Assembly: GCA_000310025.1 (NCBI GenBank)
Contig: FN648508.1
Span: 142,822-184,249 of the forward strand
DNA from: Ectocarpus siliculosus
Taxonomy: Eukaryota > Sar > Phaeophyceae > Ectocarpales > Ectocarpaceae
Direction: 5' to 3'
Length of the DNA stretch: 41,428 nt
How positions within the stretch are numbered: position 1 is the first letter of the stretch; each line of letters starts with the position of its first letter. The notes under the pieces were generated by a model. The model did no database searches, was not told where the DNA came from, and saw only the letters and a list, made by a program, of their open reading frames with translations. Shown here piece after piece: positions 8,312-37,980 of the stretch. Position numbers and translations under genes: made by a program.

Positions 8312-8650
8312 TCATAGTGTTCGAGGGCGGGATGAGTTGCGCGCGTGGACACACATAACCAACAAATGGGGGAAACTCAGGGTCGTGTGATCAAAATCGT
8401 CAACGCTGCCCAGGTCATTCGCCATCCGGAGTCTTGCGGCCCTCGACATGGTCAAAGGTAACGTCAACATGCCACATTGATTGCTAGAACACGTGAAAAA
8501 ACAGAAGATATCATCAATCCTACGCTTCTTGTGCGGACACATGATATCGACGACGAGATCACCCTCGCTCGTTGAAACGACGAACCTTTTCACAACGAGC
8601 AATAGCACAGGGGTGGCTATGGGCCTCAGGGGTTGGAGTAAACGACACAC
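8312..8650 (-). CDS. Hypothetical open frame, 112 codons
   Basis: The minus-strand frame contains VKRFVVSTSEGDLVVDIMC, then PHKKRRIDDIFCFF and MSRAARLRMANDLGSVDDFD. Its composition is more protein-like than the neighbouring random frames, with mixed hydrophobic and charged residues and no low complexity. I recognise no family. It overlaps a SINE-like 3' end at its upstream side, so it may be a scrap of a mobile element or chance. No splice context was identified. Confidence 0.25.
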   Translation of the reverse strand: MCRLLQPLRPIATPVLLLVVKRFVVSTSEGDLVVDIMCPHKKRRIDDIFCFFTCSSNQCGMLTLPLTMSRAARLRMANDLGSVDDFDHTTLSFPHLLVMCVHARNSSRPRTL

Positions 8651-8692
8651 GTGCTGTGAGCGCTGATTTGAAGTAAAGACAAGAAGAAAAAA
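8610..8692 (+). repeat. SINE 3' end with A-rich tail (5'-truncated copy)
   Basis: GTGCTGTGAGCGCTGATTTG followed by AAGTAAAGACAAGAAG and poly-A is nearly identical to the 3' end of the SINE at 11711-12024 (GTGCTGTGAGCGCTGATTTG, AAGTGAAG, poly-A). The preceding bases (AGGGGTTGGAGTAAACGACA against ACGGGTCGGAATAAACGGCA) also match. The tRNA-like head is absent. Confidence 0.7.
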
Positions 8693-9145
8693 AAACAGCG
8701 CATCTCCTCCATCTCCAGTGTTGTTACTGCAGCAAAGATAAAAAAAAACGCAAATGACTGTGCCATCGATCGGGGGGAGGTGGGGGGAGAGAGAAAAGAT
8801 AATGAAAGAAAACTCATTCCCACACTACATATAGCAAGGCGGCCATCTGTACACAAACGTTCCCCCCATCTATTTTCGAGATAGCTCTACTGTACCACGA
8901 CACCTTGCACCACAGACGCTTTGCAGCAGGCGCACTGCATCCCCCCTCAATGACTTCCCACGACAGGGTGACAAGCAAAAAGAAGACAATGACGCGAAGA
9001 CCGCGCATAACGATGGGACCCAATAAAGGCTTCAGAACAAAACAAACTCCAGAACCACTACCAATTAACACAATACACCCCATCGCCCGTACGTGTACTC
9101 CCTCTTTTTCTGTACAACAGAGGACACTATCAACGGTTACAGAAA

Positions 9146-12100
9146 TCAGACGTCAACGGTTCCTCCCCCCCCGCCGCCGCCACCGCCACCGCCACCGCCG
9201 TTGTTCGCTCTAGGCATGTTTCGCCAGTCAAGCCCGGTTGTTCTCCCTGCCCCATCGACGGCCGCCCCCCCCCACGCTGCTGTCATCGCACCCCCGTAGC
9301 CCCCACCGTTCGAAACCGCGCCGGTTTGGGTCCCCCCCCCCGCTGATGCGCGTCGCCAGGCGGGTACGCCGACGCTGTTGCCGCCGGAGGGAACAACGTT
9401 GTTCCCGATCAAGCCTTTTCGGCCACGAGAGGAAGAGGGGGCGGGGGCGGCGGCGGGACTCAGCGCGGCGACGGACGCAGCGCGATCGGGGGGTATGCCC
9501 GTCACGCAGTACTCCGCGGCGAGGTTGGTGTCGTAGCCAGACGCTCTCAACGCCAGTCTCGCCGCGTCCTGCGAAAACAAGACCGTTGAACGGCGATGGC
9601 AAGGGTGAGTACGTGGTGCATGGGGGAGGGGGGGCAGGGTGGGCAAACAAAAACAGAGCACCTTCGTCAAGGATGGAGCATCTGTAGTGCGCGACTTTTA
9701 ACGCTCGCTAGTCTCGCCGCAAAGACCGTTGAGCGGCGATGGCAAGGGCGGGTACGTGGTGCATGCGCGCAAAAGGAGGGCCAGGGGTCAAGGGGGGGTA
9801 AGGCAGGGTTATCACACGATAAACAAAGCACGTGGTACGTCAAGGTTGGAGGCTCTGTAGTGCGCGAACTCTTCAGACGCTGACCGCATGAATCCCTCCC
9901 TCCTTCCCTCCTTCCTTCCCTCCCTGCCCCCATCCACTTTGTTTCGGGGGTGACCCATGATCAATACTCAGATTAACCTAAGAAACGAAAAAGTACTCCT
10001 CCCTCCCCCCCGCTCCCGGCTTTGTGGGGGTGCGAGGTCGAGGGTCTAACGTCTGCAGCATGCACACGGCTATGCGTACACCATCCTGCACTCAGGGTTA
10101 GGGTTAGGGTTAGGGGTTAGGGTTAGGGTTAGGGGCTAGGGTTAGGGTTAGGGTTAGGCTTACCTCTGCAAACCCCATGTCCTGCAAAGCCTGGACCTGG
10201 ATCTCCACCGGACTCCCCGGCACCGCCTTCGGCACCGCCGCCGCAGCCGCCGTGTTTCCACCACCCCCTGGCCACCATCCTCGGCCCCTCCCCTGAGCAG
10301 CCGAAGCCCCTCCGCCGTAGTTGTTGTAGCCGTTGGATTGCTGTGGGCCGAATCTTCCCTCGTGCTCTTGCTGCTCTCCTCCCCCTCCGCCGATTCCGCG
10401 GAACCACGCCCCTATTCCGCCTCCTGTGTCCTCTCCCTCGCCTCCTCCTCCTCCTCCTCCTCCTCCTCCTCCTCCTCCTCCTCCTCCTCCTCCTCCTCCT
10501 CTTCCTCTGTAGTCGTTGTCGTTGCTGTGGGCGACGTAGTCTGTGTTCCTTGTGCGATTTTCCTGCGCCGCTTGCATCGCTATGGAGTACGGGTTCCACT
10601 CGGACGCCACGCTCGGGTCGTAGTTCCTGCACAGTCGTTGTCGTTGTCGTTGTTGTTGTTGCCGGCGGCGTTGTTGGTGGTGTGAAGGCGATGTGTTGGT
10701 CATCGAGCCCATAGTATGAAGGCCGTGCACAGAGGCGGGGGTGAGGCGGGATGTTGGTGGCGGCACAAAAGGTGTTATTTTTTTCATCAATGGCATCGTA
10801 CACCCGGGGGGGGGGGGTGTACTCATAGTCGTGCATGCCGTAGTCGTTTGACCATTGACCTCGCATCCCTACAAAGCCGGGACGGAGCACGCCGGGTTCT
10901 CACCGGACCAGGCTCTCACATCACCAAGCGCGAAGCACCGTGAGGTATTCGGCGAGTCGCATGAAGGGTGAGCTGCATCCTGCTAATGGTGTTCGGCATC
11001 TTGTGCTTACTTCCTTGCGTACGGATGACAGCTGCGTATGACTTACATTTATTTTCTGGTGCTTTCACTTCCAGAGACAGTTATAAGCACTGTGTAACTG
11101 CCTCGAGGGTGCTTGACCAATATTAACACAACGTGGTGCGATCATCCCCCTTGCGCGGAGTGAGGGTTCTCCACCCTGCACAACATGATCTACTCGACCA
11201 CCATTATGGTTACCGCCAAAAAAAAAAAACAGAGGTAAAAAAAAAAACGGAACAAACGGTAACCTGGTTGCCGAGTTCACGAAGTGAATTGGCTTCTTTT
11301 ACAACGTCGTTGCCAAGTGACGAAAACCCAATCCTGATGGCAAACACCGAGGGGGGGGCTTGTTTGTTTTACAACGTCGTTGCCAAGCGACGAAAACTCA
11401 ACCCCGATGGCAAACACCGGGGGGGGGGGGGCATAGAAGGTTGTGTGTGTGTGTGTGTGTGTGTGGGTACTCATGTTTCGCAGGCCTTAGCTGTTCCACT
11501 ACTCCACCCGCGTCCTCCAGAGGACATTGTTCCCACAGGACCGATCACCGATGGCCAATCGTTCCTTCCTTCTTTGCCCAACTCAAAAACGTTGTCCCTA
11601 TCCTACCTATCCTACCGGCGTGTGTGAGGGTGGGGTAAGCTGTTTCCGTGTCTGTGTGTTTCACGAACCGTGCTCCATTTCTTCCTCTTTCGCACAACCA
11701 TCTGCACCAAGCCCCGGTGGTCTAGTTGGTAACCTCGAAACCTTCTAGAGGTCAGGTCAGGGGTTCGAATCCCGGCGTAGGCGAGCTTTTCTTGCAAAGT
11801 GAGTTTTTCTCGCGCCACCGCTCCTGGCCGAGTGGATAGCGCTAGTTCGTGTGTACACAGAGGGAAGAGAGTGCTGAACTCTTCTCGCATTAAAAATCGT
11901 AGGCAAAGTACCGCAGGAGGGGGAGGGTAGAGAGGGACTCTTCTGTGTGACCACGGGTCGGAATAAACGGCACTAGTGCTGTGAGCGCTGATTTGAAGTG
12001 AAGAAAAAAAAAAAGAGAAAAAATCATGCATCACGCTGCGCTCGCTGGACTAAAAAGAGACCAATGAATCATCAATTATTTCTACACACATACATACACC

Positions 12101-13790
12101 AGTCTCGCTTCAAGCCATGGCCGACTTCTCTCCTCCCCAGCAATGCAACGAAAAAAAACAAAGACGTCTCCTGGATTGCCCGATCCTCCCCCTCCTCCGA
12201 CGTCAGTAAACGCGACATGGCCCCACCGTCCACCATCACTGGGACTGCTTGAGCAAAGGAACGTAAGTTTGTTCCGAAAAAAGACCTGACAGGGGGCACG
12301 CAGACACAAAACCTAACCCCACTTAGCCGATCTATTCTTTATCCGGCATGTTTGAATACCTAAAAAAAACTGCGTAGCCTATTTGGACACAAGACCAGGT
12401 AGGTGGCACGCAGGCCCTAACCCTAACGGCAACTTAGCCGATTCAATACTTTATCCAGTATGTTTGCATACTTAAAACAACCTGCGCAGACTAATGCATC
12501 GCTACACCGCACCGCACCTCAAGCCGTGTCCGACGCCATTCCCAACCCCTCCGCCCGCGTGCGCCCTTTCCGCGTAGCTCTTCCCTTGGTCCAAGGCTTC
12601 CAGGTTAAAGAACTCAACCACGTCGGGGTGCTCCCACAGCTCTGTTACCACCAGCGCCCCATTGGGAAGAGAGAGAGACACGGCACCGACAACGGGCGGA
12701 AGAGGTAGGAAATTCGTGCATTAGAGGCCAAAGCAAATACAAGCACTCCGTAATTTCCAGAATTCAGCAAGAGAAAAGCGTTCTTAGGCTTTCGGGTACT
12801 TGGTGTAATTATTTGTTGTCGGTCGCGTTGCTCCTTACCTTCGCAAACGAAAAAACCTTTCTGACCTCCCTGTTCATCCTTCTTGCCCGCAATACAGTGG
12901 GGGCCCTGTTTTGTGCCGGTTGAACGGTGCCAATGCCTGGGATAGTGTCGGTGTTTCGGGGTACACACTCTGAATTTCCAAGTCATTGTCAGTACTTTTG
13001 ATTGGTTCCGGTCCGGTATGGTGCCGGTGAATTTTCTTGGCACATGCCGGCACTAAACTGGGACCCCCTCTGTATGTGTGTTTTTGTGTCCTTCACAGAG
13101 GGAGTCCCTGTTTAGTGCCGGTCGACAGTGCCGGTGCCCGGGATAGTGCCGGAGTTTCGGAGTACACACTGAATTTCCAAGTCATGGTCAACTCTTGGAA
13201 AAGTGCCGGTCCGGTTTAGTGCCAAATGAACTTGCCGGTGAATTTTCTGGGCACATACCGGCACTATTTAGTACACAGGGACCCACACTGTATCCGATAC
13301 CAAGACACCACATTGGAAATTTCGGTGATCGCAGGTGCCATATTCTTACATATCGCCTTTCGGAATACGGCTCAACAATATGTTGAAAGTGTGTTCGCGA
13401 AAGAATGGCCAGGAAAAAGAGAACAAAAAAAAAGAGCTTCGGTAGAATAAGAAAGAGCCACAGGCAACAAGACAAGAACGATGAATCGAATCCATGCAGA
13501 GCGAGCGCCCTGTGCCATGCAGCAAGCTTTGTCGCGTAGGAGAGCCAAATCCAGACCAAGGCAAAATGCAATACTTTCTCTGCATCTCTCTGTCCGCCTC
13601 TATCATAGCTCACCAGGGTTCTTGTTGAACAACTGGCGTAAGAAGCTGCCCAGCTGCTCCTTCCGGTGCCTCACGAACTCGCTGTTAGCGTCGGACCTGT
13701 CGCCGAGAAAGCTCTCCTCCGTCACCACTCGCTTCCCCGGAAACTCGGGAGCGCCCTCGGACCGCACCTGCCCCTCGTGCTGTTGTTGTT

Positions 13791-13824
<34 letters not shown>

Positions 13825-16473
13825 TCGTTGTTGTCGTCGTCGTTGTCGTCGCCATCGTTGTTGTCGTCGTCGTTGTCGTCGTCATCGTCGTTGTTGTTGT
13901 TGTCGTCATTGCCGTTGTTGTTGTTATTGTTATTGTTGACGTTGTTGTTGATTGGTGGTGAGCAACCACGAGAGTTGTTGGTGTTGAAGTTGTCGTCGTC
14001 GCCGTCGTCGTCGTCGTTGTTGTTGTTGTCGTTGATGTTGTTGATGACGTTTCGTCGTCGATGTTGATTGGCGGTGAGCAACCACGAGAGTTGTTGTTGT
14101 TGTTGTTGATGACGTTTCGTCGTCGATGTTGATTGGTGGTGAGCAACCACGAGAGTTGTTGTCCATGTCATCGTCGTGGTCGTCACCATTGTTTATGTCG
14201 TTGATGACGTCATTGTCGTCGTCGTCGGCGGCGGCGATGTTGTTGGTTGGTGGTGGTGAACAACCACAAGAGAAACAAGGGTCGCAAAACACCGAATGTG
14301 GGGTTGGAGGGAGGAGGGTGGGGGAATGCTGTCAACAACGCCTTGAAAGAAAAACAACACACGATTATACGAAGACTTGGGGTCAAATTTCACGTGTTCT
14401 CGACAAACGTACATGCGGACAAACACGCGATCTTTCCGGACGCACTGAATACTCCCTTGCTCCGCGGAGCACGCCTCGGGAGTACTACTACTGCTGTCGT
14501 ATCGTCATGTACGTCGGTTGTTGCATGCCCAACGTTCAGCGCGCTGCTACTGCCCAAACGTTCGGCATCTACACAGCAGAGCCAAACTTGAACGTGTTTT
14601 CTTCCCCCCCACGATAACAAAACAAGAGTTTAGTTGTGCCCTTTGTTGCATCCCTCCGCAGGGAATTTACCGCCCCACCCTGCCGTGTCGGTACAACACT
14701 GTCTCAGGGGAGGGCTTGGCGTGGGTAAAAAACGAAATCAACGAATTCCGATGAGAGTGTCTTTTTCGTTGTCTGGGTGCTGCGTGCGTCGACTCCACTC
14801 CGATACAGACGTATATACCCCTACAACAGGCCGGAAGAGCACCGGCGGCAAACTGGCAGAAAACAATCATGGCAGCAAACAATGGTGGGCAGCAAACCGC
14901 CACGGCAGCAACCAGTCACAGGAGCGAAAAAATAATCATGGCAGCGAACAATCGTGGCAGCAGCCAATAATCCCAGAAAACAACCATGCAGAAAACAATA
15001 ATGGCCGAACGCACAGCTCCAACGCCGCCATTTTCGGCACCGCTACTCCTTGAACTGCTGAGGACTAATCGAGCTTTGATCATCGGTCGAGGGGGTGTGG
15101 TACCTTGCGTCATGTCACGTCACCTACAAAACGTGAGGTGTTTTCGACTAAGTAAACATGTTGGACAAAGCATGCCGTCGGGGAAGTTGGGTAAGGGTTA
15201 GGGTTAGCGAGTAGGGCCTGCGTCCCCCCTCACTGTTCTATTTCCTCCTAAATTTACTAACCTCGCGAAAGCGGTCCGACTTTCTCGTGGTATGCTGAGA
15301 TCGGTCGACGCATGGCCGCGGTATGCATGTATTGCATGCGGGGCAAATATGCATACGTGCCCGGACAACGGTGGCGGAGAGAGAGAGGCCATGGTATGCA
15401 TACGCACTTCCGAGGGAGACAAAGGGGCACGCGCTCGCCTTCTAATCATTTTCCATTTTCTGCTAAACATACAAGTACGCATGCGATACATAAATACCGT
15501 CCGCGCGTGGGTATTTTCATTTTTCCTAAAAAATCTCCTTCACTGTTTAGATCCTGCGGTGAAACGATCGTTGGTCGTTGAACCTCACATGCTAATAAGT
15601 ATACATGTGGCCACCGATTTGGGTCAGCCCGTTGCTGCACGAAAACCTCGTTTGTTGGCGTTGTCGACTTATTAGGTCGCATAGTAGTCTTTACACCCCC
15701 CGGACAGGGCCTCAAAGCTCGACTACTCTGCAGCAAAACCAGCAGGCAACGGTGCCGAAAATGGCGGGAGGTGTTGGAACTGTTTACACCCCCCGGACAG
15801 GGCCTCAAAGCTCGACTACTCTGCAGCAAAACCAGCAGGCAACGGTGCCGAAAATGGCGGGAGGTGTTGGAACTGTGTCATCGAGAGCTTTCCAAAAACG
15901 TGCCGTTCGATGTTGTACTAACTTCCTCTTCATCGTGGGGTAATCGAGCTTTGAAGTTCGGCCCAGGATGTGTGGCATCGTATATGCTCTACCAATGCTA
16001 CCTACCCATTTGTACGGCAGAAAGAAGAGGACGTGACACATACAGGCATGGTGGGTTTAACGCTAAGACAACAGCAACAACGACAGCAACAAACGGTAAC
16101 AACATCAACGACAGCAGCAGCAGGAGCAACAAAAACAGCAGCAGCAGCAACAACAACAACTCTCGCAAGAAACAGCGACGTACCTTGAGGTGGTTGTAGA
16201 GGCTTCGCAGTTCGCTGTACCGCTGCGCCGACACGCACGACGCCCCGTCCCTTATTCGGCTCACCCGGATTATGTAAACCACGAAGCTCGTCTTGGGCCC
16301 GATGCCTAGGTCTTTTATCCAGGCCTGGAGGTTTTCACCACGTACATGTACAGCGCGAACGAACAAGGCGCAAAAAGCAACATCCGTAGCCTGGTGTGTC
16401 TGGTAGTCTACAGGGAGGGGGTACACGCGATAGAGTGCCGTTGCAGCTCGGCTTGCCTCGGAACGAAGAGATT

Positions 16474-16504
<31 letters not shown>

Positions 16505-18350
16505 CTTCACACAAAGAAACGTTCCGATGTCTCTATCCAGTACCTTCCTCTGTCTGTGCTGATCTACACTTGACGCGATCGATTCCGTAGTCACAGGCTA
16601 ACTTGACCTTATAAAGGTACTAAAAAAACATGGACCCGAAGTGTCCGCACGCCAATAGAAATCGACGACAGATGTCAAATATGTCATGTACTGACAGACT
16701 CCCGAGCCAGGTTGGCGTTGTCGAGGGGCTGGTTGGCGCTTGTGCTCGACTCGAAACTGAACACTGCAATCAACGCCGAAACCAACCAAAAGGGTCTCTT
16801 TGACAGTAGTCAAGACTCAGTGCTTCACCTGCTTTCGAGTCTCAGCGGCCAGGACTTTGACGTCAAACTTGGCGAGGTTCTTCTCGATGGCCAGGCCTTG
16901 CCCCGTGTTCATGAGCATATTTATCTGAAAGCGAACAGAAGGGATGATCGAAAACATGAGCATATTTATCTCAAAGCGAACAGACTCGATGGACGAAACC
17001 ACAAAAAAAAGGGAAAAAAACACCGGAGTATCGGGGGTTCCCCAGCAAGCATCGCCACGGCGGGGGCAGGGAGAGTTGATTATTGGTGTTGGGTGGGTGT
17101 ACTCACTTAAACGCACGCCGTAGGTATTAGGCCATTGACTTCGAATCCCTACAACGCCTGGACGGAGCTACAATATATGTCGCGTTCTTACGCCGGCCCA
17201 GGCTACGTTTTACAAGGATGGTGGGAGGAGAGGGGGGGGAGAACAGAAACAATTGTGTCCGGCGTGTTTGTAGCATCGAACATGGCATCCTCAGCACCCA
17301 CGTCAACAGAGTTCATGAACAATTGGTATCCTGGGATACGTGAACAGTCAACGCGGGAGTCACCCAGAGAGACAAGAGAGAGACAAAGGCACAACACGAA
17401 AAAAGCAAGAGAAAAAGCGTGCCATCGGGCGACGATCGCAGCACTACGCAAGACCGCTGCTGCCCTTGTAGGCGGCGGGGGGGATGACAGACGGAACTGT
17501 CACGAAATCGGTCGAAAGCTAGAAGGATTCGAAGCTCCTATGCACACCAACCACAACCACCGCCATTCCGCTCTCGTATTTTAGCCTCAAGGCGAGAGAT
17601 GGACAATACTGCACTCTGCATCTGCTTGTAGCAGTAGTACGCCAAGCTGACATCTCAACACTGCGATTATATTGTGGTTAGGCGCGTATAACGTCACGTG
17701 ATGTACAACTCGAAATCTCTCTCCACCCGCGGTCAAGAGCTGGCTTTCAAGGCTACGCGGGACGAATCTACGCATTAGCTGTTACGATGTGATCAGCCTC
17801 CGCGAGTCGACACACACAGGCCGTCGTCGACCCCAACGCCCCCGCCTAACCCTCGCGGGTGACAATAACCCGGGACACAACAAGGGGAAGAATTATGATG
17901 GGGAAGTCGGGGGAACCAAAAAGAGAGGCGACGTGACAGCAGCAGCAGTGCAGGTTCATCTCATCATCAGCATCTTCCACCTTCGATTCGTTCGTGAGTT
18001 GCTGCGGTTGGGGGGGTCCTGCACGCCAGCGGTTCGCGTCATCCGTCACGGACAGGTACACGCTGGGCGTGTACCGAGTCCCCTGCTCCGCCATCGCCCA
18101 CTGCGGTGGTTTCTCCCTCCGGCTGTGTGCTGTACTCAGCAGCTCAACTTTGAACCTCGACCTGTTGGCGTCGGCAGCCGGACAAGGGCGCACAACGTAT
18201 TCTCAGTTGGCGTATCTTCCCCGGGGGGGCTGTTCTTTGAAATATACAAATGAAGAGGGAGAAGAAGAGCGCGAAGCGCGTGCACGTTTGCACTCACCGA
18301 TCGTCACTGCTGCCGGTATCAGCTCCGCGAGGGCACTCAAACCCACCCCT
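9146..18350 (-). CDS. PX domain and UBA domain protein (multi-exon)
   Basis: Minus-strand exons join with matching phase: 18201-17981, 16924-16829, 16763-16692, 16324-16184, 13767-13614, 12641-12518, 10626-10164 and 9568-9146 (TGA at 9146-9148), about 564 codons. A further 5' exon ends at 18298 (GATCG|GTGAGT) and the start codon is not found. The PX domain spans exons 3-6. It shows SFVVYIIRVSRIRDG, the RYSELRSLYNHLK phosphoinositide-binding arginine motif, EFPGKRVV, FVRHRKEQLGSFLRQLF and LWEHPDVVEFFNLE. A linker follows with a long poly-Gly tract. The UBA domain is split by the last intron: EIQVQALQDMGFAE joined to DAARLALRASGYDTNLAAEY and CVTGIP, like the first UBA of Rad23. The C-terminus is Gly-rich. 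PX domains usually bind PI3P on endosomes and UBA domains bind ubiquitin, so a role in ubiquitinated cargo sorting or selective autophagy is inferred. The N-terminal exons (RFKVELLSTAHSRREK; GQGLAIEKNLAKFDVKVL) are not recognised. Confidence 0.78.
10095..10157 (+). repeat. Interstitial telomeric repeat (TTAGGG)n
   Basis: Nine or so TTAGGG-type units, with two TTAGGGG and one CTAGGG variant, end directly at the minus-strand splice donor of the 10626-10164 exon (CAGAG|GTAAGCCTAACCC). TTAGGG is the telomeric repeat type expected in brown algae. Shorter matches occur at 12417-12427 (CCCTAACCCTAA) and 15190-15205. Confidence 0.9.
10441..10503. repeat. (CTC)n trinucleotide repeat encoding poly-Gly
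   Basis: About 20 uninterrupted CTC units lie inside the 10626-10164 exon. Read on the minus strand they give GAG/GGA/AGG depending on frame. In the frame fixed by the UBA exon junction they encode poly-Gly, flanked by NDNDYRGRG and EGEDTGGGIGAW. Length variation in multiples of three would change the linker length without breaking the protein. Confidence 0.85.
10806..10925 (-). repeat. LINE 3'-tail fragment with poly-C end
   Basis: A G-tract (10806-10817) is followed by GTACTCATAGTCGTGCATGC and GTAGTCGTTTGACCATTGAC. This matches the reverse complement of the LINE 3' end (GTACTCTTATGTTTTGCATG, then CCTTAGCGGTTAGACCATTG). It lies in the intron immediately upstream of the UBA-containing exon. 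The same stretch read on the minus strand looks deceptively protein-like. Confidence 0.65.
11297..11431. repeat. 70-bp tandem duplication with variable G tract
   Basis: TTTTACAACGTCGTTGCCAA begins at 11297 and again at 11367. Each copy continues with G(T/C)GACGAAAAC, then CTGATGGCAAACACCG or CCGATGGCAAACACCG, and ends in a G-run of different length. The copies differ at a few positions. Confidence 0.85.
11442..11618 (-). mobile_element. Truncated LINE 3' end, (CA)n tailed
   Basis: Reading the plus strand from 11466, GTACTCATGTTTCGCAGGCC, then CGCGTCCTCCAGAGGAC and ATTGTTCCCACAGGACCGAT, then GGCCAATCGTTCCTTCCTTC match the reverse complement of the LINE 3' end at 28640-28785 over about 150 bp with scattered differences. 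The tail side is a (GT)n run at 11442-11465 preceded by a G tract, instead of plain poly-C. It sits in the intron between the PX exon 12641-12518 and the UBA exon 10626-10164. Confidence 0.8.
11711..12024 (+). mobile_element. tRNA-derived SINE, full length with poly-A
   Basis: The head holds a pol III A box (TGGTCTAGTTGG, 11718-11729) and a perfect B box (GGTTCGAATCC, 11762-11772) at tRNA-like spacing. The acceptor and anticodon stems do not pair properly, so this is not a working tRNA. A second A-box-like motif (TGGCCGAGTGGATAGCGC) follows near 11826. The 3' end is GTGCTGTGAGCGCTGATTTG, AAGTGAAG and an A-rich tail to about 12024. Truncated relatives lie at 8610-8692 and 22610-22785. It lies in an intron of the PX-UBA gene, in the opposite orientation. 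Confidence 0.8.
12896..13072. mobile_element. MITE-like GTGCCGG element, copy 1
   Basis: The ends are inverted: GGGGGCCCTGTTTTGTGCCG at the left and CCGGCACTAAACTGGGACCC at the right. The interior carries TACACACTCTGAATTTCCAA and several GTGCCGG units. It is non-coding and about 177 bp long. It lies in the intron between the 13767-13614 and 12641-12518 exons, next to a second copy. Confidence 0.75.
13096..13290. mobile_element. MITE-like GTGCCGG element, copy 2
   Basis: ACAGAGGGAGTCCCTGTTTA, then GTGCCGG, opens the element and CCGGCACTATTTAGTACACA, then GGGACCC, closes it. The interior shares GTACACACTGAATTTCCAAG with copy 1 in the same orientation. Only about 23 bp separate the two copies, so this is a nested or tandem arrival. 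Confidence 0.75.
13785..14275. repeat. GTC/GTT triplet-rich intron tract with embedded minisatellite
   Basis: Nearly 500 bp of the PX intron (13768-16183) consist of GTC, GTT and GTG triplets. Embedded are copies of GATTGGTGGTGAGCAACCAC followed by GAGAGTTGTTG, at about 13948, 14060 and 14129, with a fourth diverged copy (GGTTGGTGGTGGTGAACAAC) near 14240. Long Thr/Asn/Asp frames read through it are artefacts of the triplets. Confidence 0.85.
15024..15104 (-). repeat. Inverted copy of the 93-bp repeat family
   Basis: The reverse complement reads CCACACCCCCTCGACCGATG, then AAAGCTCGATTAG and CGGTGCCGAAAATGGCGG. This resembles the unit at 15690-15782 (ACACCCCCCGGACAGGGC, AAAGCTCGACTA, CGGTGCCGAAAATGGCGG). 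It faces the tandem units about 590 bp away, as terminal inverted repeats would. Confidence 0.55.
15690..15875 (+). repeat. Exact 93-bp tandem duplication
   Basis: The unit starting TTTACACCCCCCGGACAGGG occurs at 15690-15782 and again at 15783-15875 with no difference that I can see. A diverged relative lies at about 18450-18560 (ATACCACACCCCCTGCACAG, then AAAGCTCGAT). The exact identity suggests a recent duplication. Confidence 0.9.
16040..16165. repeat. CAA/CAG triplet-rich tract beside a splice donor
   Basis: AACAGCAACAACGACAGCAA and similar triplets run to within about 20 bases of the minus-strand donor CTCAAG|GTACGTCG at 16184/16183. The tract lies inside the intron. Confidence 0.75.
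16471..16503. repeat. (GTT)n microsatellite
   Basis: Eleven GTT units, interrupted little, lie in the short intron between the exons at 16692 and 16324. Read on the minus strand they give a poly-Thr or poly-Asn frame that is not part of the protein. Confidence 0.85.
16911..16983 (-). repeat. 45-bp in-frame tandem duplication across a splice acceptor
   Basis: ATGAGCATATTTATCTGAAA begins at 16911 and ATGAGCATATTTATCTCAAA at 16956, both followed by GCGAACAG. On the minus strand this gives two possible acceptors 45 bases apart, CGCTTTGAG|ATAAATATG (upstream) and CGCTTTCAG|ATAAATATG (used in the model). Using the upstream one would add exactly 15 residues in frame. Confidence 0.8.
17095..17205 (-). 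repeat. LINE 3'-tail related repeat
   Basis: GTACTCACTTAAACGCACGC, then CGTAGGTATTAGGCCATTGA and ATCCCTACAACGCCTGGACG resemble the fragment at 10806-10925 and, less well, the LINE tail. It lies in an intron of the PX-UBA gene. The G-run is replaced here by GTTGGGTGGGT. Confidence 0.5.
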
Positions 18351-19948: not shown

Positions 19949-22146
19949 TTAGTTGAAGGTGTATCCCGCGCCAAGGAGGTCGTTGATCACGTACGGCTTG
20001 TTGTTCAGCTCCTCGTGCACCATCAGGGCCAGGATGCCCATCTGTGCCGCGCGCCCGTTGTTCAGCTCGATCGCGCGCTTCGACGCCTGGGTCTCCTCCG
20101 ACATCGCGTCCCACGAGGACCCGAACGGGTTGCCGCCCAGGGTGAAGTCTCCAGGGAACGAGCCCTCCACGTTCTTCATCACAGCCAGCTCAAGGAAGCC
20201 GATGAACGCGAAGATCTGGGCGAGGCCCGCCGGGGGGATCTTAGACAGAGCGGCCACGCCGTTCGGCATGTCCGCGAACGACAGGTTCGCCGAGTTCGAC
20301 AGCATGCCGGGGAGCCGGGTGTTCTGCTGGGTCAGGTGACCGGCGATGGCGAGCATAGCAATGCGCCCGTGCTTCACCTCCACGTACCGGAGGCGCTCGA
20401 ACCGCTCCTGGTCCGCGTCCTCGAGGAGGCCGAGCGGGTCCCAGAATCCGAGGGGGGGCTGCGCGCCGATCTCCGACTCGAACGACATCTTCATGGCCGA
20501 CGACGACTTGGCCGGGGTGGCCACGGCGGCGCCCTTGAACGCGCTGTGGTTTTAGATGGCAGCAGTGACAAGGCAAGGAAGGAGAGGAAAAAAGGGAAGG
20601 CGGGTCAACGATTGATTTCAACCAAGGAGGGGTTGTCTTCCAGTCTTGTGTATTTACAATTTTCCTAAAACGAACACAATGAAGAGCTCGGAGATTCTCA
20701 AGGGTCTGTAGGCATTATACGCATACAACGGACAACAATCGAGACGGATGTTGCGCGTTTACGTGGGAACGAAACGCCGGCGTGTGAACGTGTACCCATC
20801 CGCCGTGGTTCGAAGCTGCGAACTCCTTAGAGGAGTTCAAGCGAAAAAAACAAGCTGACACGCAAATTTACGGAGTCCATGCGGGCACACGATGTTCTGC
20901 TGAGAGATTGTGACAAGACTCTCGGTGCGATCACCCCACGGCATGATTTCGAGGCTGCAAACTCGGTGCAACTAGATAGCTACTGCTGGTGGTTTGTGAG
21001 TGCGGCGAAAGGACGAAGCAGTCTGAGTCGGAGGTTTGTCGAGACACGAGATCGACCCGACACCGCTGCTCGTGTGTGCCACGCCACTCGACAAAACGAC
21101 AGCCATCTTGGAAAAGACAAGCATCGGACACTAATGAACTTTTGGATCTAGGGGAAAGGTGTGATGCGCAAACATCGGGTTGCGCGCCAACAAGCAGGCG
21201 CTGCCGCTGCTTCTGTGTTGCATATGTACGAACGATGACGACTGTCCTAACCGTTCCATGCTCAGTGAAACCGAGTCACCTACTGACGAGAAAATATTCA
21301 ATCGTGCACGGGAGCAGGCACGCAAGTGCAGGTCTTTTCCGATCTTCCAAGCTTAAGCTTCCGACCCGCCGCGCACGACACAGGAGGAGACAACTCATGA
21401 GGGGTGGCACAACTCGAACGCCAAGACCCTTTGGTGAATAGTGCCAGCAACGAGAATGAGCGCGTCGCGAGAACTACATCTGTACGCTCCTCCGCCCTTG
21501 GGTGTAGTGTATTCTTGCTTGACAGGTGTTTAGTTCCTTCCAGGATGGACTCTACAGCTCGCATTACTCAGCAACAACAAACTCAGCAATCTACATTCTA
21601 CAGTAGTCGTGCGCGCATCATATTTAGTCCACGGCAGGGACATGCTTTGTTCATGCTGAATCCGAGAGAGCAGCGGCAGGGACATGTTTTTGTTCATGCT
21701 GAATCGAGAGAAGCGGGGAAGAGAAGTCATGCGCGCATTCATCTCAGAAGGAAAGGAGCTGCTGTAGTGCGTAGATTTGACGCCGGCCGAGTGAAACGCA
21801 CGTGCTTCGGCAAGCGGGAGGGACAGGCACTCCTACTCAATTCGTACAAGAGCCCATCATCATGCAGAGCGACGCGACGTGCATTTAGTAGCGCATGGCG
21901 CCACCAGGATACCGATTCAATTACGGAGAGAGGAAAGATGTTAGGAGGACAGCTGTTCTTAGAGAGCACATGCTACAGATTTTCGTAGCTTCTAGAAGCA
22001 AGAAAGCATGAGTACGTGTGTTCCTACTACGATCGAAAGGAGCGTGCTACCTCCGGATAACCAACGAACTGCTGCTGTTCTCACCTGGGTGCCACGAAGG
22101 CTTGGGCTCCGGCCACGCAGGCAGCGGCTACAACGCAGGACTTCAT
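19949..22146 (-). CDS. Fucoxanthin-chlorophyll a/c-binding light-harvesting protein, copy 1
   Basis: Two exons, 22146-22085 and 20543-19949, encode 218 residues. The single 1541-bp intron follows codon position 2 of Ser21. Residues 1-20 (MKSCVVAAACVAGAQAFVAP) are an ER signal peptide ending in the A-F motif used for import into complex plastids. The mature protein has the three LHC helices. Helix 1 (about 67-92) carries ERFERLRYVEVKHGRIAMLA with the chlorophyll-binding Glu, His and Arg. Helix 2 (about 126-145) carries IFAFIGFLELAV. Helix 3 (about 172-199) carries AIELNNGRAAQMGILALM. This is the standard FCP/LHCF fold of thylakoid antennae that harvest light with fucoxanthin and chlorophylls a and c. 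The predicted protein is identical to that of copy 2 at 36263-37980, and the two genes are head to head. Stop TAA at 19949-19951. Confidence 0.95.
20544..22084 (-). other. Intron of LHC copy 1
   Basis: GTGAGAAC donor and ACCACAG acceptor. The last 50 bases or so resemble the copy 2 intron end (CACTGCTGCCATCT, then AACCACAG); the rest is unlike it. A short tandem repeat (CGGCAGGGACATG, then TTCATGCTGAATC) occurs twice near 21630 and 21673. No gene is seen inside. Confidence 0.85.
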
Positions 22147-23487: not shown

Positions 23488-23915
23488 TTAGGCATTCTAT
23501 TGTCATCAGTAGAGGATACCATGAAGAGGCGTCGTGCGTGCTGGCACGTTCAGGGTTGCTACTGAAGCGGAAATATCGAAGGTCGCAGCGCCTTTGAAAA
23601 CAGTCGCCGGAACCAAGCGGCATCCAACATTTGTCACAGCCATGCTCACCGCCACGGACCGTAAACCCCTGAACGGAGGGGTGTCAGCAGTAGCTAGTGG
23701 CATCAGCTACTGCTGTAAACCCGTAGCTCAGGAGATTGGGGTCGGTGACGGCGAGCATGGCTGTGACAAATGTTGGATGCCGCTTGGTTCCGGCGCAGAT
23801 TTCGGCAAAGGCTGCTGCGACCTTCGATATTTCAGCTCCAGTAGCAAACCTGAACGTGCCAGCCCGCACGACGCCTCTTCATGATGTCCTCTACTGCTGA
23901 CAATAGAATGCCTAA
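23488..23915. mobile_element. Long foldback element (about 200-bp arms)
   Basis: The left arm starts TTAGGCATTCTATTGTCATC at 23488. The right arm ends in its inverse, GACAATAGAATGCCTAA, at 23915. Inner segments also pair: ACCAAGCGGCATCCAACATT, then TGTCACAGCCATGCTC on the left, against GAGCATGGCTGTGACAAATG, then TTGGATGCCGCTTGGT on the right. The loop is small (about 23695-23710). Both strands can therefore read the same short peptide (MRAGTFR, then GTKRHPTFVTAML), which follows from symmetry. MITE or foldback transposon is the likeliest identity. Confidence 0.85.
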
Positions 23916-25284: not shown

Positions 25285-28200
25285 CTACCCAAGACCGAAA
25301 ATCCCCTTCTTCTTTCCGACATCGTCGGGGTTGAGCTTCTGCGCCTTCTGCGCCTTCTTCTTGTCGTCTGCCGCCTTCTTGGCCGCCGCCGCCGCCCTCT
25401 CCCCCGCCGGTGGCGGTTTCTTTCTGAAGGGGGGGGGAGGGGGGAAAAGGTGTGGTTGTTTTAAACCAAGAAAGNNNNNNNNNNNNNNNNNNNNNNNNNN
25501 NNNNNNNNNNNNNNNNNNNNNNNNNNNNNNNNNNNNNNNNNNNNNNNNNNNNNNNNNNNNNNNNNNNNNNNNNNCTGGGTATTGTGCCTCTCTACTGCAT
25601 GGGTTTGACTTGCACGGGAACCCAATATTTCCACGAGAGGGGACCAGAGAGGGAGAGATAAAGAGAGTCAGACAAAAACAAAGTTATCGCATGGCCAAGC
25701 GGAAGAAAAGTCGACCCTGCAGTCGGCCACGTAGAACACGACCTTGGGGTACGAGGTAGGCGTGAAGTCAGACTTGCTGCTCAACAACCACGAAAGAGAA
25801 ACACGCATGCACCAAGTTTAATCTTTGCCCTTGTCTTTTCGAACCCCTACCTTGATCATTTCAGCACAAGGAAAGGAAAGCGGCTCGCTCTCATTTTTCT
25901 TCCACTGGTACTAAAAATAGCACCAGGTGTATGTATTTCGCAAGAGAATGAATCAAGAGTACATATGGAAATCAAAGCTTGACGAAAACGTCTACATGTA
26001 CCACTGCAATCAGAGCAAGAAGGTGAAAGAGGGACAAAACGCCAAAGGTGAAAAAAAAACTAGAGGCCTAGCATCACCGAAGTGAGAACAGGAACATCAA
26101 AGCTGGACGAAACAACACACGCAAAACCGAAAAACCTAAAACGGCCTTCTATCCCCAACTCACCGCAGCGTAAGCCTTGTCTGTGGCGGACCACTTCTTC
26201 TGGAGGTTCTTCTTGGCCAGGTCGGAGTTGTCCCACGCCCCTTTCCTCTGCATGTACGGGGTTTTTTCAGGAGGGATCTCTCCCGATTTTACCTGCCGTC
26301 GAAGGTAATAGTAGCGTTCGTTGTCGTTGGGTGATCGACATTGTTGTTTCGAATGCTCCCTCTCTTCCTTGTTTGCCAGCATTCCGTTTGCAATGCACAG
26401 ATCCGTATATGGGAGCAGCAGTTACAATTATAAATTGCTTGCTTGGCGCTACCCACTTGAGGACTTGGAGGATAAAGGGGTCAGTGCTCAGATTTGTCTT
26501 TGTAAAAACCAACACACGATAACGATGCCCGGTCATGAAGTCGTACGTACAGTGGCTGCCGGAATTCCCACAGAAGAAGCAATAACTCGGGTCTCTTGCA
26601 AGCACCAGAGGTGCTCTCTAGAGTTGGTTTGGTCACGCTCTCTGTGCCGTGCGCGCAGTTTTCATCGGATTGCCCGCGTGGCTTCTACCCCGAAGCCAGA
26701 TGAGCATGCGCTGCTGCCGTAGTTCTTCCGCTCTGCATGACCACGAAAGGCGTCTCGATCTGCTGTGTTGGCGCATACCGCGTGTTCCGTGGGGCAGCAA
26801 TGCGGGACGGGCAACCCACCGGAGACCGTGCACGGGACGGAAGCGTCCCGCCAAAGGCCGGAACGAGAACGCCCCCTCTTGCCTGCCCCCCATGACGCTC
26901 TAGCTTTCCGTCCGAACCAGATGACAGAGCGTACACCCGTGCGAAAAGCCACATTCACAAGAAAAAAGTGTCGCCATTTTACCGTCCTCGGTGGTCTGCA
27001 CACACGAGACACACACATGTTACACATGAATGCTAAATATCGCGTATGTCTTGAGGAAAAGAGGTCCGCATTCGTCATATATCGTTGCGGAAGGCGGCGG
27101 ATGGGTGCTCTCTGCATTTGCCGGCAGGTCAGAAAAAACGTAGGAAGAAACGCAAGAGAAAACGGATGGCGCTTACGTTTTTTTTCTGGCGTTTCTTCCT
27201 GCGTTTTTTTCCAGTTTTTTTCCTCATGCGCTGGAATGCAGAGAACCTCTATCCACCGAATTCCGCAGGTATGTATGACGTATGACAGGCATGTTACAAC
27301 CATCACTGGTAAACCTCCCCCCTCTCCCCGCAAGGTTGCACTTTGTCCCCAACGTTGTTCCAGGTGTTCATCAACGATCTGTTGAAAGTCGTACAAGCAG
27401 TCGAAAAGGGAGTAGAGGTGGGGGAAAGCACGGTGTCGGGAATGCTGTTTGCGGATGACTTTATTGGGATGTCTGACACCCCTGAGGGACTGCAATTGAC
27501 GCGGGGAAGGAGTTTGTTGATAAGTTGAGATTGTCTGCCAACGTTGAGACGAGTGCGGCCATGGTATGCAACGAGGACAGGGAGGAACCAGTAGAACATA
27601 GATGGAAGGGGGGGGTCGAGGAGAGCGCAGTAGTGGACCAGTACACATACCTCGGAGTAGAGATCGCAAAAGACTGCTCGTGGAATGCACACATGTCCAA
27701 GGTAGCGGAAAAGGGCAAAGCACGAGCAGGGAAGCTGCACCCAATACTCGCAAACCGGCACCTCGATTCACGTATGTATCAAATTGGCGGTTTTGAAGAG
27801 CGTTATCGTACCGCCGCTAGAGTACGCCGGAGAAGTATGGGAAGGAAATAAGAAGGTAGTGAAAGAACTCGAGGCGGCGCAGATGAAAGCAGCGAAAGTC
27901 ATCCTAGGATGCTCCAAGCGCACAAGCAATGCAGCCGTAAGGGCAGAATTGGGGATCCAATCCCTACGGTCGGGAAGAGACGCAAGGAAGCTGACATGGC
28001 AGTATCGCATGTGCGGGATGGGAGAGGAGAGGTTGCCGAGAATAGTATGGGAGGCGAAGTGGGAAAACAAAAAGAGGGTTAGACAACCCACGGAATGGGT
28101 CAAGGTTGTAGAGGACGTATGGAAGGGGTTAGACATCGACGAACATGAAACGCTGGAAACGGAGGGTTTACAGGGGTTCAAGGAGAAGATATCTGTTGCT

Positions 28201-31200
28201 TGTGCCGAGAGAGAAGAACAGAATCTAAGGAAAGAAACCAAGGATAAGGAGGGTCTAGAAGTGTACGATGTTGAAAGAAGGAATAGGGTTCAAGGAGTAC
28301 CTACATGGACCAAATGATGCAAGGACAAAGCTTAAGGTCAAATTCAGGACCGGCGACGTTGGCCTTCGAGAACGTAGCCGAAGATATAGAAAGGTAGACG
28401 ACGAAGACGCCAAGTTCCAATGTGATTGCGGTTCCGAGTGCGAAGACCGTGTTCATGTAGTCACGGAATGTCGGCTGTACAAGAAGGAGAGGGACGTGTA
28501 CATGACTGAGCTGGGAAAAGTAGAAGAAAAGTACAGGAAGACGTTTGAGGCATGGAATAGACAGGATAAGACGTTCGCTGTACTGGGGAAAAGGAAGTGG
28601 TTTGAAAAGGCGGGAAGGAATATCGGTAGGATAGATAGACTAGGGAAGACATTTTTGAGCCACCTTTGGCAAAGTAGGAAGGAACGATTGGCCATCGGGG
28701 ATCGATCCTGTGGGAACAATGCTCCGTCCTCTCGAGGACGCGGGGTCAATGGTCTAACCGCTAAGGCATGCAAAACATAAGAGTACGCCCCCCCCCCCCC
28801 CCTGGTGGTACGATGTGGGGTATCGGTTAAGTGGTGGGATAACGAGCTGAAAGAAGAAATAGGGGAACGTAGAGAAGTCTTCAAGCAGTACCTGAGTGAG
28901 GGGTCTGAGGAGAGTTGGGAAAAGTACAGGGCCAAGAGGAAACAGGCGAAGGGACTAGTGAAAAAGAAGAAAAAGTGCATTTGGGGCGAAGTAGTGCAGA
29001 AAGGCCAACGGAGGCCTGGAGGGGAACGCCAAGCAGATGTGGGAAGGGATTAGTGGGATGGTAAAAAAGACCGCGCAAGGGGGGCATACAGGGGTAGCAA
29101 CTTTGCGAGGTGTGAACGGTGGACTAGTCAGCAGTGGGAAGGAAAAAAGGGAAGTTCTAGCAGGACACTACAAGAGACTTGGAGTGCCTTCGGAGAATGA
29201 AGCTTTTGACCAAGTGCTTAAGAAGGAGGTGGACGCATGGGCCCAGAAAGAAGAAGAGACATCGAAGGCAGACGTTGGGAACGTAGAACTAGAAAAGGAG
29301 TTCACTGAGGACGAGGTTGAGGCGTGTGTGAACAAGTTGCAGTGCTACAAAGCAGCAGGGGCGGATGGGATAGTCAACGAGTTCATGAAGTTTGGGGGGA
29401 AGGGGATGATCCAGTTGATGGTACAGCTGTACAACTGGGTGCGGAAAAACGAGTATGCGCCAAGTAGATGGAGGGAAGGAGTGGTTGTGAACTTGTTTAA
29501 AAAAGGAGACAAGACTGACCCAGGAAACTACAGGGATATCACACTGTTGAACACAGTAGGAAAAGTGTTTTGTAAGTTGCTGAACGATAGGATAGTGGGA
29601 GTATTGGAGAAGGAACGTAGCATTAGTGAGGGCCAGGCAGGTTTCCGACAGAAGAGGGGGTGCGTAGACCACGCATTCACGGTAGGGAGAATCGTCCAAG
29701 GTAGAAAGAGGGCGGGAAAGCCGACGTACTGCTTCTTCCTGGACGTGAAAAAGGCATACGATACCGTATGGAGAAATGGGCTGTGCAAACAATTGTCCAA
29801 GTACGGGATCAAGGGGAAAATGTGGAGTGCTGAAGAAGGTGACAGAGTGTACGAAAAGCGCGGTCATGCTAGACGGACAACTGTCTAAGTTCTTCGACAT
29901 TGAGCAGGCGGTCCCACAAGGTTGCACCTTGTCCTTAACATTGTTCCAGGTGTTCATCAACGATCTGTTGGAAGACGTAGAGGCAGTCGAGAAGGGAGTA
30001 AAAGTAGGGGACACGGAAACTTCGGTGTCAGGAATGCTGTTTGCGGATGATTTTGTTGGTATGTCGGACACCCCTGAGGGACTGCAACTGCAAATTGACG
30101 CGGCGAAGAAGTTTACTGATAAATGGAGATTGTCTGCCAACGTAAGAAGAGTGCCGCCATGGTGTGCAACGAGGTCAGGGAGGAACCAGTAGAACATAGA
30201 TGGAAGGGATGGATCGAGGAGATTGCAGTAGTGGACCAGTACACATACCTCGGAGTAGAGATCGCAAAAGACTGCTCGTGGAATGCACACATGTCCAAGG
30301 TAGCGGAAAAGGGCAAAGCACGAGCAGGGAAGCTGCACCCAATACCCGCAAACCGGCACCTCGATACACGCATCAAATTGGCGGTTTTGAAGAGCGTAAT
30401 CGTACCGCCGCTAGAGTACGCCGGAGAAGTATGGGAAGGAAATAAGAAGGTAGTGAAAGAACTCGAGGCGGCGCAGATGAAAGCAGCGAAAGTCATCCTA
30501 GGATGCTCCAAGCGCACAAGCAATGCAGCCGTAAGGGCAGAATTGGGGATCCAATCCCTACGGTCGGGAAGAGACGCAAGGAAGCTGACATGGCAGTATC
30601 GCATGTGCGGGATGGGAGAGGAGAGGTTGCCGAGAATAGTATGGGAGGCGAAGTGGGAAAACAAAAAGAGGGTTAGACAACCCACGGAATGGGTCAAGGT
30701 TGTAGAGGACGTATGGAAGGGGTTAGACATCGACGAACATGAAACGCTGGAAACGGAGGGTTTACAGGGGTTCAAGGAGAAGATATCTGTTGCTTGTGCC
30801 GAGAGAGAAGAACAGAATCTAAGGAAAGAAACCAAGGATAAGGAGGGTCTAGAAGTGTACGATGTTGAAAGAAGGAATAGGGTTCAAGGAGTACCTACAT
30901 GGACCAAAGGATGCAGGGACAAAGCTTAAGGTCAAATTCAGGACCGGCGACGTTGGCCTTCGAGAACGTCGACGAAGACATAGGACGGTAGACGACGAAG
31001 ACGCCAAGTTCCAATGTGATTGCGGCTTCGAATGCGAAGACCGTGTTCATGTAGTCGCGGAATGTCCGTGGTACGAAGAGGAGAGGGAATTGTACATGAC
31101 TGAGCTGGGAAAAATACAAAGGGACGTACAGGGAGATGTTTGAGGCATGGAAATAGAGAGGAGAGGACGGTAGCTGTACTGGGGAGTAGGAAGTGGTTTG

Positions 31201-36262: not shown

Positions 36263-37980
36263 ATGAAGTCCTGCGTTGTAGCCGCTGCCTGCGTGGCCGG
36301 AGCCCAAGCCTTCGTGGCACCCAGGTGAGAACAACCGACTACCTACAGAGGGAGAGAGAGAGCGGCACACGATTTGTTCGTTGGGGTCATGGCGACAAAG
36401 TAGGCAGCTGTTCTTGGGTGTTTTGGCGCGTCTTGTTGCATGCGCGGCAAGGGCGCGTTGCGGTGTGCTCCCACTCCTCACTGAAGACAGTTCGCGCGCG
36501 CCACGCCGCTGTGTGCACCCGTGCATGCGTGTGTCAGCTTGTTTACTACACTGCTTACGCAATCCAATCATGTTTTCTCCGGAAGACTCCGCATACAAGA
36601 ATGCCGTCAGCTGCCTCCCGTGTTGAATGTGAAATCTTGAGTTTAAGATCCAGGAGTCAACAACGCTTGCTTCTCCCTCGGTCGTACAGCCAGCCGAGGT
36701 TGTCCTCGCAACCTTCCCATCACAAGACACACTTTTTCTATTTCGCGTCTTTTCTACACAACTCAACATGTGTTACTACTGTTCAGGGAGAGCCCCAGCG
36801 TTTCATGCAGATGCGTTGCCAAGTAGGTCGTCCTCAACAACTCGCGTAATAGTCTTGGTGTTGACTGTGTGGAGCGTGGCCAACAGACTACAAAAGGCAT
36901 CATCTGTACAGCTTGCCGTTTTTTCGGGGTGCTATATATATGTAGACAACGATCTGAAAACAACTCGCCGCCTCCATGGGCCCTCCCGTCGGATAAATAT
37001 CTGTCCGTCTGGCGATTGAACAACAACGAGGGTGCACACAGCCACAGTACGCCCACCTACCTGCAACATGTGGACTTCACACCAATACATTATGCAAGTT
37101 GTCGCTTAGCAACTGTCCGGAACTTGTGGAGTAATGATCTACCTCACACAGGAACTCTTCAATCGCGGAAATCCAGACAAATACCCAGTTGAATCAAATC
37201 GAGTCTTGAACGCTGTTTGTGAACTAAGACGAGGAAGAGAGTAGATTCCAATGGACTTGGGTGATTTTCGTTCGAGCTGGGAACATCAGATCATGGACAA
37301 CTACTGCTGTTGAATCGCTCGCGATTCGTAACTTTTTCCCTTTTTTCCTCTCTTGCCTCGTCACTGCTGCCATCTATAACCACAGCGCGTTCAAGGGCGC
37401 CGCCGTGGCCACCCCGGCCAAGTCGTCGTCGGCCATGAAGATGTCGTTCGAGTCGGAGATCGGCGCGCAGCCCCCCCTCGGATTCTGGGACCCGCTCGGC
37501 CTCCTCGAGGACGCGGACCAGGAGCGGTTCGAGCGCCTCCGGTACGTGGAGGTGAAGCACGGGCGCATTGCTATGCTCGCCATCGCCGGTCACCTGACCC
37601 AGCAGAACACCCGGCTCCCCGGCATGCTGTCGAACTCGGCGAACCTGTCGTTCGCGGACATGCCGAACGGCGTGGCCGCTCTGTCGAAGATCCCCCCGGC
37701 GGGCCTCGCCCAGATCTTCGCGTTCATCGGCTTCCTTGAGCTGGCTGTGATGAAGAACGTGGAGGGCTCGTTCCCCGGAGACTTCACCCTGGGCGGCAAC
37801 CCGTTCGGGTCCTCGTGGGACGCGATGTCGGAGGAGACCCAGGCGTCGAAGCGCGCGATCGAGCTGAACAACGGGCGCGCGGCACAGATGGGCATCCTGG
37901 CCCTGATGGTGCACGAGGAGCTGAACAACAAGCCGTACGTGATCAACGACCTCCTCGGCGCGGGATACACCTTCAACTAA
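36263..37980 (+). CDS. Fucoxanthin-chlorophyll a/c-binding light-harvesting protein, copy 2
   Basis: Exons 36263-36324 and 37386-37980 (TAA at 37978-37980) encode 218 residues, with a 1061-bp intron after position 2 of the Ser21 codon, exactly as in copy 1. Presequence MKSCVVAAACVAGAQAFVAP is followed by SAFKGAAVATPAKSSSAMKM and the three-helix LHC body (EVKHGRIAML; FAFIGFLELAV; ELNNGRAAQMGI). It acts in the thylakoid antenna. Compared base by base, the coding sequence differs from copy 1 at 3 of 657 positions, all silent: TCG/TCT in Leu-Ser-Lys, CCC/CCT in Phe-Pro-Gly and CTC/CTT in Leu-Leu-Gly. The intron exon-proximal 50 bases are alike; the rest is not. It is divergent from the minus-strand plastid-protein gene. 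Confidence 0.95.

Follow-up and report, generated by a model that had tools for sequence, protein, structure and literature searches.

A candidate PX-UBA protein of the brown alga Ectocarpus siliculosus predicted to read PtdIns3P and, plausibly, ubiquitin

Introduction

PtdIns3P is a mark of endosomes and of phagophores, and ubiquitin is a tag on cargo bound for the vacuole. Reading both signals with a single protein is described for HRS/Vps27 of ESCRT-0, which binds PtdIns3P through FYVE and ubiquitin through UIM in endosomal sorting (PMC12051064), canonical ESCRT-0 composed of HRS and STAM being presented in these accounts as restricted to opisthokonts, with TOM1-type proteins acting elsewhere (PMC12051064, PMC7253699). 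UIM is listed among the domains that accompany both FYVE and PX in a survey of such proteins from 2010 (PMC2837644, section 7), and the main text of that survey contains no UBA (PMC2837644); as PX together with UIM is on record there, one protein reading lipid and ubiquitin is no new idea. A survey of kinetoplastid PX proteins distinguishes PX alone, PX-PX, PX-kinase, PX-kinase-lipocalin and PX-Vps5, with neither UBA nor ubiquitin in its main text. Stramenopiles have lineage-specific PX architectures, i.e. PDZ-PX-Vps9 in ochrophytes (PMC6032885) and FYVE-PX in Phytophthora sojae (PMC8233823), both being without a UBA domain as described in these reports.

Here, we analysed a window of 41,428 nucleotides of E. 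siliculosus (assembly GCA_000310025.1, contig FN648508.1, positions 142,822 to 184,249), for which a sequence-only reading had placed a PX domain and a UBA domain in one protein. We see about an even chance that a single gene encodes a 504-aa adaptor for PtdIns3P and ubiquitin which would gather tagged cargo on endosomes in an HRS-like manner.

Results

A seven-exon gene model

On the minus strand, seven exons combine into a single open frame of 504 aa (1515 nt) with a lone stop at its end (Table 1). All six introns start with GT and end with AG, and four of the six donors carry a G at position +5; the exceptions are the first two (GTGGAA, the weak donor of exon 1, and GTGAAG), which makes the N-terminal end the less certain part of the model. 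By codon usage, the used frame ranks top of six in all seven exons under either of two backgrounds tried, the codon table being derived from one fucoxanthin-chlorophyll protein (FCP) gene of the window with 200 codons only. An open scan for coding-like segments ranked simple repeats above true exons, and its best 30 segments touch exons 2, 4, 6 and 7, some of them in another frame, and not exons 1, 3 and 5.

Exon 1 alone has no Pfam match or known domain. The N-terminal third, regarded as unrecognised in the sequence-only reading, turns out to be shorter, as in the simplest model starting at ATG 18094 only ~55-80 of the 504 aa precede the PX fold. Upstream of this ATG lies a good donor (GATCG/GTGAGT, last exon base 18298) that would close a 5' UTR exon, since one upstream ATG, followed by eye, runs into a stop. 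A model without exons 1 and 2 and with a longer exon 3 leaves the domain scores nearly unchanged, and the domain calls are therefore independent of the uncertain N-terminus. An exon 3 start at 16390 is open as well; 16324 was preferred because the 22 codons gained in this way have their highest score in a different frame. Between exons 2 and 3, the coding-like stretch ANQPLDNANLARE (16737-16699, minus strand) scores as high as exon 2 and is a possible alternative exon, the phases of which, judged by hand, do not fit the simple model.

Several repeats accompany the exons. A 45-bp tandem duplication (84%) at 16910-16999 takes in the exon 2 acceptor and the first bases of that exon, with GAG instead of CAG in its upstream copy; an exact 93-bp tandem duplication, or an assembly artefact, is present in an intron at 15690-15875; and trinucleotide repeats of the CAA/GAC type lie upstream of the acceptors of exon 6 (10634-10683), exon 4 (13785-14250) and exon 3 (16473-16505).

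Table 1. Features of the PX-UBA gene model, in coordinates of the window
Feature	Position	Strand	Description
Coding exon 1	17981..18094	-	ATG 18094; aa 1-38; phase 0, open
Coding exon 2	16829..16924	-	aa 39-70; phase 0, open; used frame top of six
Coding exon 3	16184..16324	-	aa 71-117; PX; SGK3 alignment and Pfam PX
Coding exon 4	13614..13767	-	PX; SGK3 alignment
Coding exon 5	12518..12641	-	PX end (ELWEHPDVVEFF) and linker start; SGK3 alignment crosses the 4/5 junction
Intron joining the PX and UBA halves when removed	10627..12517	-	1891 bp, with repeats; GTGCGG..TGTGCAG, phase 2
Coding exon 6	10164..10626	-	aa 210-364; Gly-rich linker and first half of UBA; open; used frame top of six
Coding exon 7	9146..9568	-	Second half of UBA, low-complexity C-terminus, stop TGA 9148-9146
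PX domain	12604..16228	-	PF00787 match spread over exons 3-5
UBA domain	9509..10199	-	PF00627 match spread over exons 6-7
GGA microsatellite	10441-10507	-	Period 3, 22.3 copies, 96% matches; codes the 20-Gly run

The PX domain and the predicted membrane target

Both profiles named in the sequence-only reading, PF00787 and PF00627, match the spliced protein above their curated cut-offs. The PX match (1.3e-9; 38.9 bits with a curated cut-off of 21.6) covers aa 103-181 of the 504-aa model and profile positions 12-82 of 84, leaving the first strand uncovered, and the arginine motif RYSELRSLY noted before is present, within QRYSEL at aa 104. Judged by eye, FDVKVLAAETRK of exon 2 may be this first PX strand; the PX matches in the structure and Pfam searches stop short of exon 2. 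Among solved structures, the PX domain of SGK3 is closest (6.1e-7), followed by the weaker matches to the sorting nexins SNX12, SNX3 and SNX1.

The SGK3 alignment places all four PtdIns3P-binding side chains, the counterparts of the SGK3 binding residues being found in QRYSEL, APEFPGK and VRHRKEQ: the Arg-Tyr pair R105/Y106 is encoded in exon 3 (16222-16217), and exon 4 contributes the Lys of the PPK loop, K129 (13734-13732), and the Arg of helix 2, R152 (13665-13663). The corresponding account states that these four residues are present in all human PX domains binding PtdIns3P, and it links a helix His or Tyr with basic neighbours to other phosphoinositides, SGK3 belonging to a group that binds both (PMC6449406). 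Tyr113 (in LYN, likewise encoded in exon 3) sits where SGK3 has a Tyr. Because all four required side chains are present, PtdIns3P binding is the best prediction for this PX domain, and we do not claim it to be exclusive.

At E-values up to 1, the 504-aa model shows Pfam matches to PX, UBA and UBA_7 only, hence none to VHS, GAT, FYVE or UIM, and neither of the ESCRT-I motifs PSAP and PTAP occurs in it. As PtdIns3P marks phagophores as well, the protein might instead be a selective-autophagy adaptor linking ubiquitinated cargo to PtdIns3P-rich phagophores and not an endosomal sorter. This is a fair if unlikely alternative: it has a stramenopile precedent in PsAF5 of P. sojae, described as an ATG8-binding mitophagy adaptor with ANK and FYVE (PMC10912746), and the protein contains five [WFY]xx[LIV] strings, but chance often produces such strings, the PX match itself contains three of them (aa 106, 113 and 179), LIR evidence is lacking, and a Pfam match to PB1 or ZZ as in NBR1 is absent.

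Evidence for a single gene across the exon 5/6 junction

Of the four splices leading from PX to UBA, three interrupt a domain and have homology behind them, since the SGK3 alignment runs across junctions 3/4 and 4/5 and the RAD23A alignment runs across junction 6/7. Junction 5/6 (12518/10626) is the sole one outside a domain and has no such backing. The phase-2 junction TTGAG/G predicted earlier, which yields ..GHGLRNYDPSVASEWNPY.., is present in the sequence. An open frame at this position is weak evidence, because 12 of 42 combinations of nearby splice sites (7 GT x 6 AG) stay open, and the acceptor of exon 6 is preceded by CAA/CGA repeats without a pyrimidine tract.

The alternative to be weighed here is a pair of adjacent genes on the same strand, i.e. 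one for a small PX-only protein ending just after 12518 and one for a Gly-rich UBA protein starting in or just before exon 6. Reading through exon 5 reaches a stop after CGAV, four codons past the donor, which is a possible C-terminus; the first ATG of exon 6 is in frame at codon 17, others lie in the open stretch upstream, and the many open splice-site pairs mean that openness proves little. Codon usage speaks against such a division. Upstream of exon 6, the in-frame stretch has per-codon scores of -1.39 or -1.25 under the two backgrounds, no better than intron windows of 240 nt (median -1.12 or -1.10), whereas exon 6 itself reaches +0.30 or +0.23 over its first 18 codons, a level attained by 2.0% or 2.5% of equally long intron windows, and the 16 codons ahead of the in-exon ATG are coding-like as well (+0.48 or +0.37). 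Exon 6 thus looks internal and not first, the upstream stretch scoring like intron and its first codons like coding sequence, and exon 5 is the nearest exon on the same strand needing a partner. Moreover, the 5/6 join is in phase and its donor has a G at +5. Two genes are therefore rather improbable, and one gene is favoured because exon 6 looks internal by codon usage; we infer a single transcript spanning the PX and UBA halves. Of the proposal that PX and UBA belong to one protein, the two domains were confirmed by Pfam, and the single gene is the reading best supported by codon usage.

The intron separating the two halves carries the second copy (11952-12020) of a dispersed 69-bp repeat, 83% alike to the copy at 8627-8695. 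Around 11700-11900 it resembles, by eye, the A and B boxes of a tRNA and perhaps contains a SINE; ARAGORN found no tRNA.

The Gly-rich linker and the UBA domain

The poly-Gly linker described before is present and was refined to a stretch of 20 Gly (aa 253-272) inside a PX-to-UBA linker of ~167 aa, 53 Gly being contained in aa 196-350. The run is encoded by a GGA microsatellite and, instead of a conserved hinge, is slippage-prone filler within a flexible linker; its length probably varies.

The Rad23-like UBA domain split by the last intron was likewise recovered, with a PF00627 match of 7.2e-8 (32.6 bits, curated cut-off 22.4) at aa 353-384; UBA_7 overlaps this match and stays below its own cut-off. 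The closest solved structure is RAD23A (3e-5), followed by RAD23B and a ubiquitin-specific protease 14. Exon 7 is open to its stop. A telomere-like (CCCTAA)n repeat directly follows the donor of the UBA-splitting intron (10094-10162).

The MGF loop is kept, and YLLTGIP of RAD23A is replaced by YCVTGIP, i.e. Leu-Leu by Cys-Val in the last helix; for these two reasons, ubiquitin binding is predicted as plausible and short of certain. The sequence-only reading of a dual binder of phosphoinositide and ubiquitin is in line with the PX side chains for its lipid part, and its ubiquitin part is plausible. We consider it quite improbable that the UBA is a dimerising or other protein-contact module and the protein an ordinary PX adaptor, since the Cys-Val exchange and the fact that not all UBA domains bind ubiquitin would suit this but the protein closely resembles a ubiquitin-binding UBA of RAD23A in its MGF loop and in the ALRASG..AAEY..TGIP on either side.

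Searches for relatives and neighbouring features

The PX part gave 3 pattern stretches in viral contigs and 60 in prokaryotic genome contigs, and the UBA part 38 in viral contigs, with no relatives among any of them. An FCP protein of the same window, used as a control, gave 2 stretches and no relatives in viral contigs; as this control was also empty and the genome contigs are prokaryotic, the result does not mean that the family is absent.

The window further contains two FCP genes (PF00504) in opposite orientation, at 19949-20551 on the minus strand and at 37228-37980 on the plus strand, 197 of their 200 last codons being identical; either an inverted duplication took place recently, or gene conversion or the assembly made the two copies alike. 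At the protein level, FCP matches FCP17 of PDB entry 9ygv with 8.3e-114. Retroelement fragments lie at 27486-31143 (plus strand), with a reverse transcriptase match (PF00078) at 28995-29885 and a similar 3' part occurring twice, at 27.5-28.3 and 30.1-30.9 kb. A full-length Rfam match to MIR8622 is located at 23594-23805 on the plus strand (206.8 bits, cut-off 197); this match and the one to FCP17 are in keeping with brown-algal DNA.

Discussion

The predicted protein shares features with several described systems. Like HRS/Vps27, it may combine PtdIns3P and ubiquitin binding in one polypeptide, although this binding is only predicted here, and it differs in using PX and UBA in place of FYVE and UIM and in having no VHS or coiled-coil match; the ESCRT-0 domain set of VHS, FYVE and UIM was not found by Pfam. 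With SGK3 it shares the closest PX domain, the four PtdIns3P residues and the Tyr in LYN, and in contrast to SGK3, in which a kinase follows PX, the 504-aa model has no kinase match. The UBA domain is closest to RAD23A, but RAD23 is a shuttle composed of UBL, two UBA and XPC-binding parts, whereas the model has one UBA and no UBL match, and the NCBIfam rad23 profile reaches only 26.5 bits of its cut-off of 207.3, confined to aa 338-414. The sorting nexins share the PX domain, yet the UBA and the Gly-rich linker take the place of BAR or other SNX parts, a Vps5/BAR match being absent. The PX proteins with UIM listed in the 2010 survey likewise join PX to a ubiquitin-binding motif and, going by that listing, have UIM and not UBA (PMC2837644). 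PDZ-PX-Vps9 and FYVE-PX resemble the candidate as lineage-specific PX architectures of stramenopiles and differ from it by having no UBA as described.

We found no described protein with a PX-UBA layout in the literature searched, in which the pair thus appears undescribed; the sequence-only reading had likewise named no described family for this layout, and the principle of reading two signals is already known.

In the mechanism we propose, the PX domain would dock on PtdIns3P-bearing membrane, either endosomal or pre-vacuolar, the long flexible Gly-rich linker would extend between the docked PX domain and the UBA, and the RAD23-type UBA would hold ubiquitinated membrane cargo. A protein with weak affinity for lipid and for ubiquitin would, like HRS, remain at sites carrying the two, and such combined reading would collect tagged cargo at endosomes so that it can be sorted. 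An adaptor of this kind suits a lineage in which TOM1-type proteins act in place of HRS and STAM, the comparison with HRS being an analogy. We infer the binding of ubiquitin by the UBA, the endosomal location and the sorting role. A further-reaching possibility is that PX-UBA proteins, conserved in brown algae or more widely in stramenopiles, serve as a home-grown counterpart of ESCRT-0, recognising PtdIns3P and ubiquitinated cargo and starting multivesicular-body sorting in a lineage that has no HRS and STAM; we regard this as doubtful, with a low probability.

If the proposed role is true, the brown-algal PX-UBA adaptor would represent another, independent route to the joint reading of lipid and ubiquitin, and the gene provides a specific testable candidate in a lineage in which endosomal sorting is little studied.
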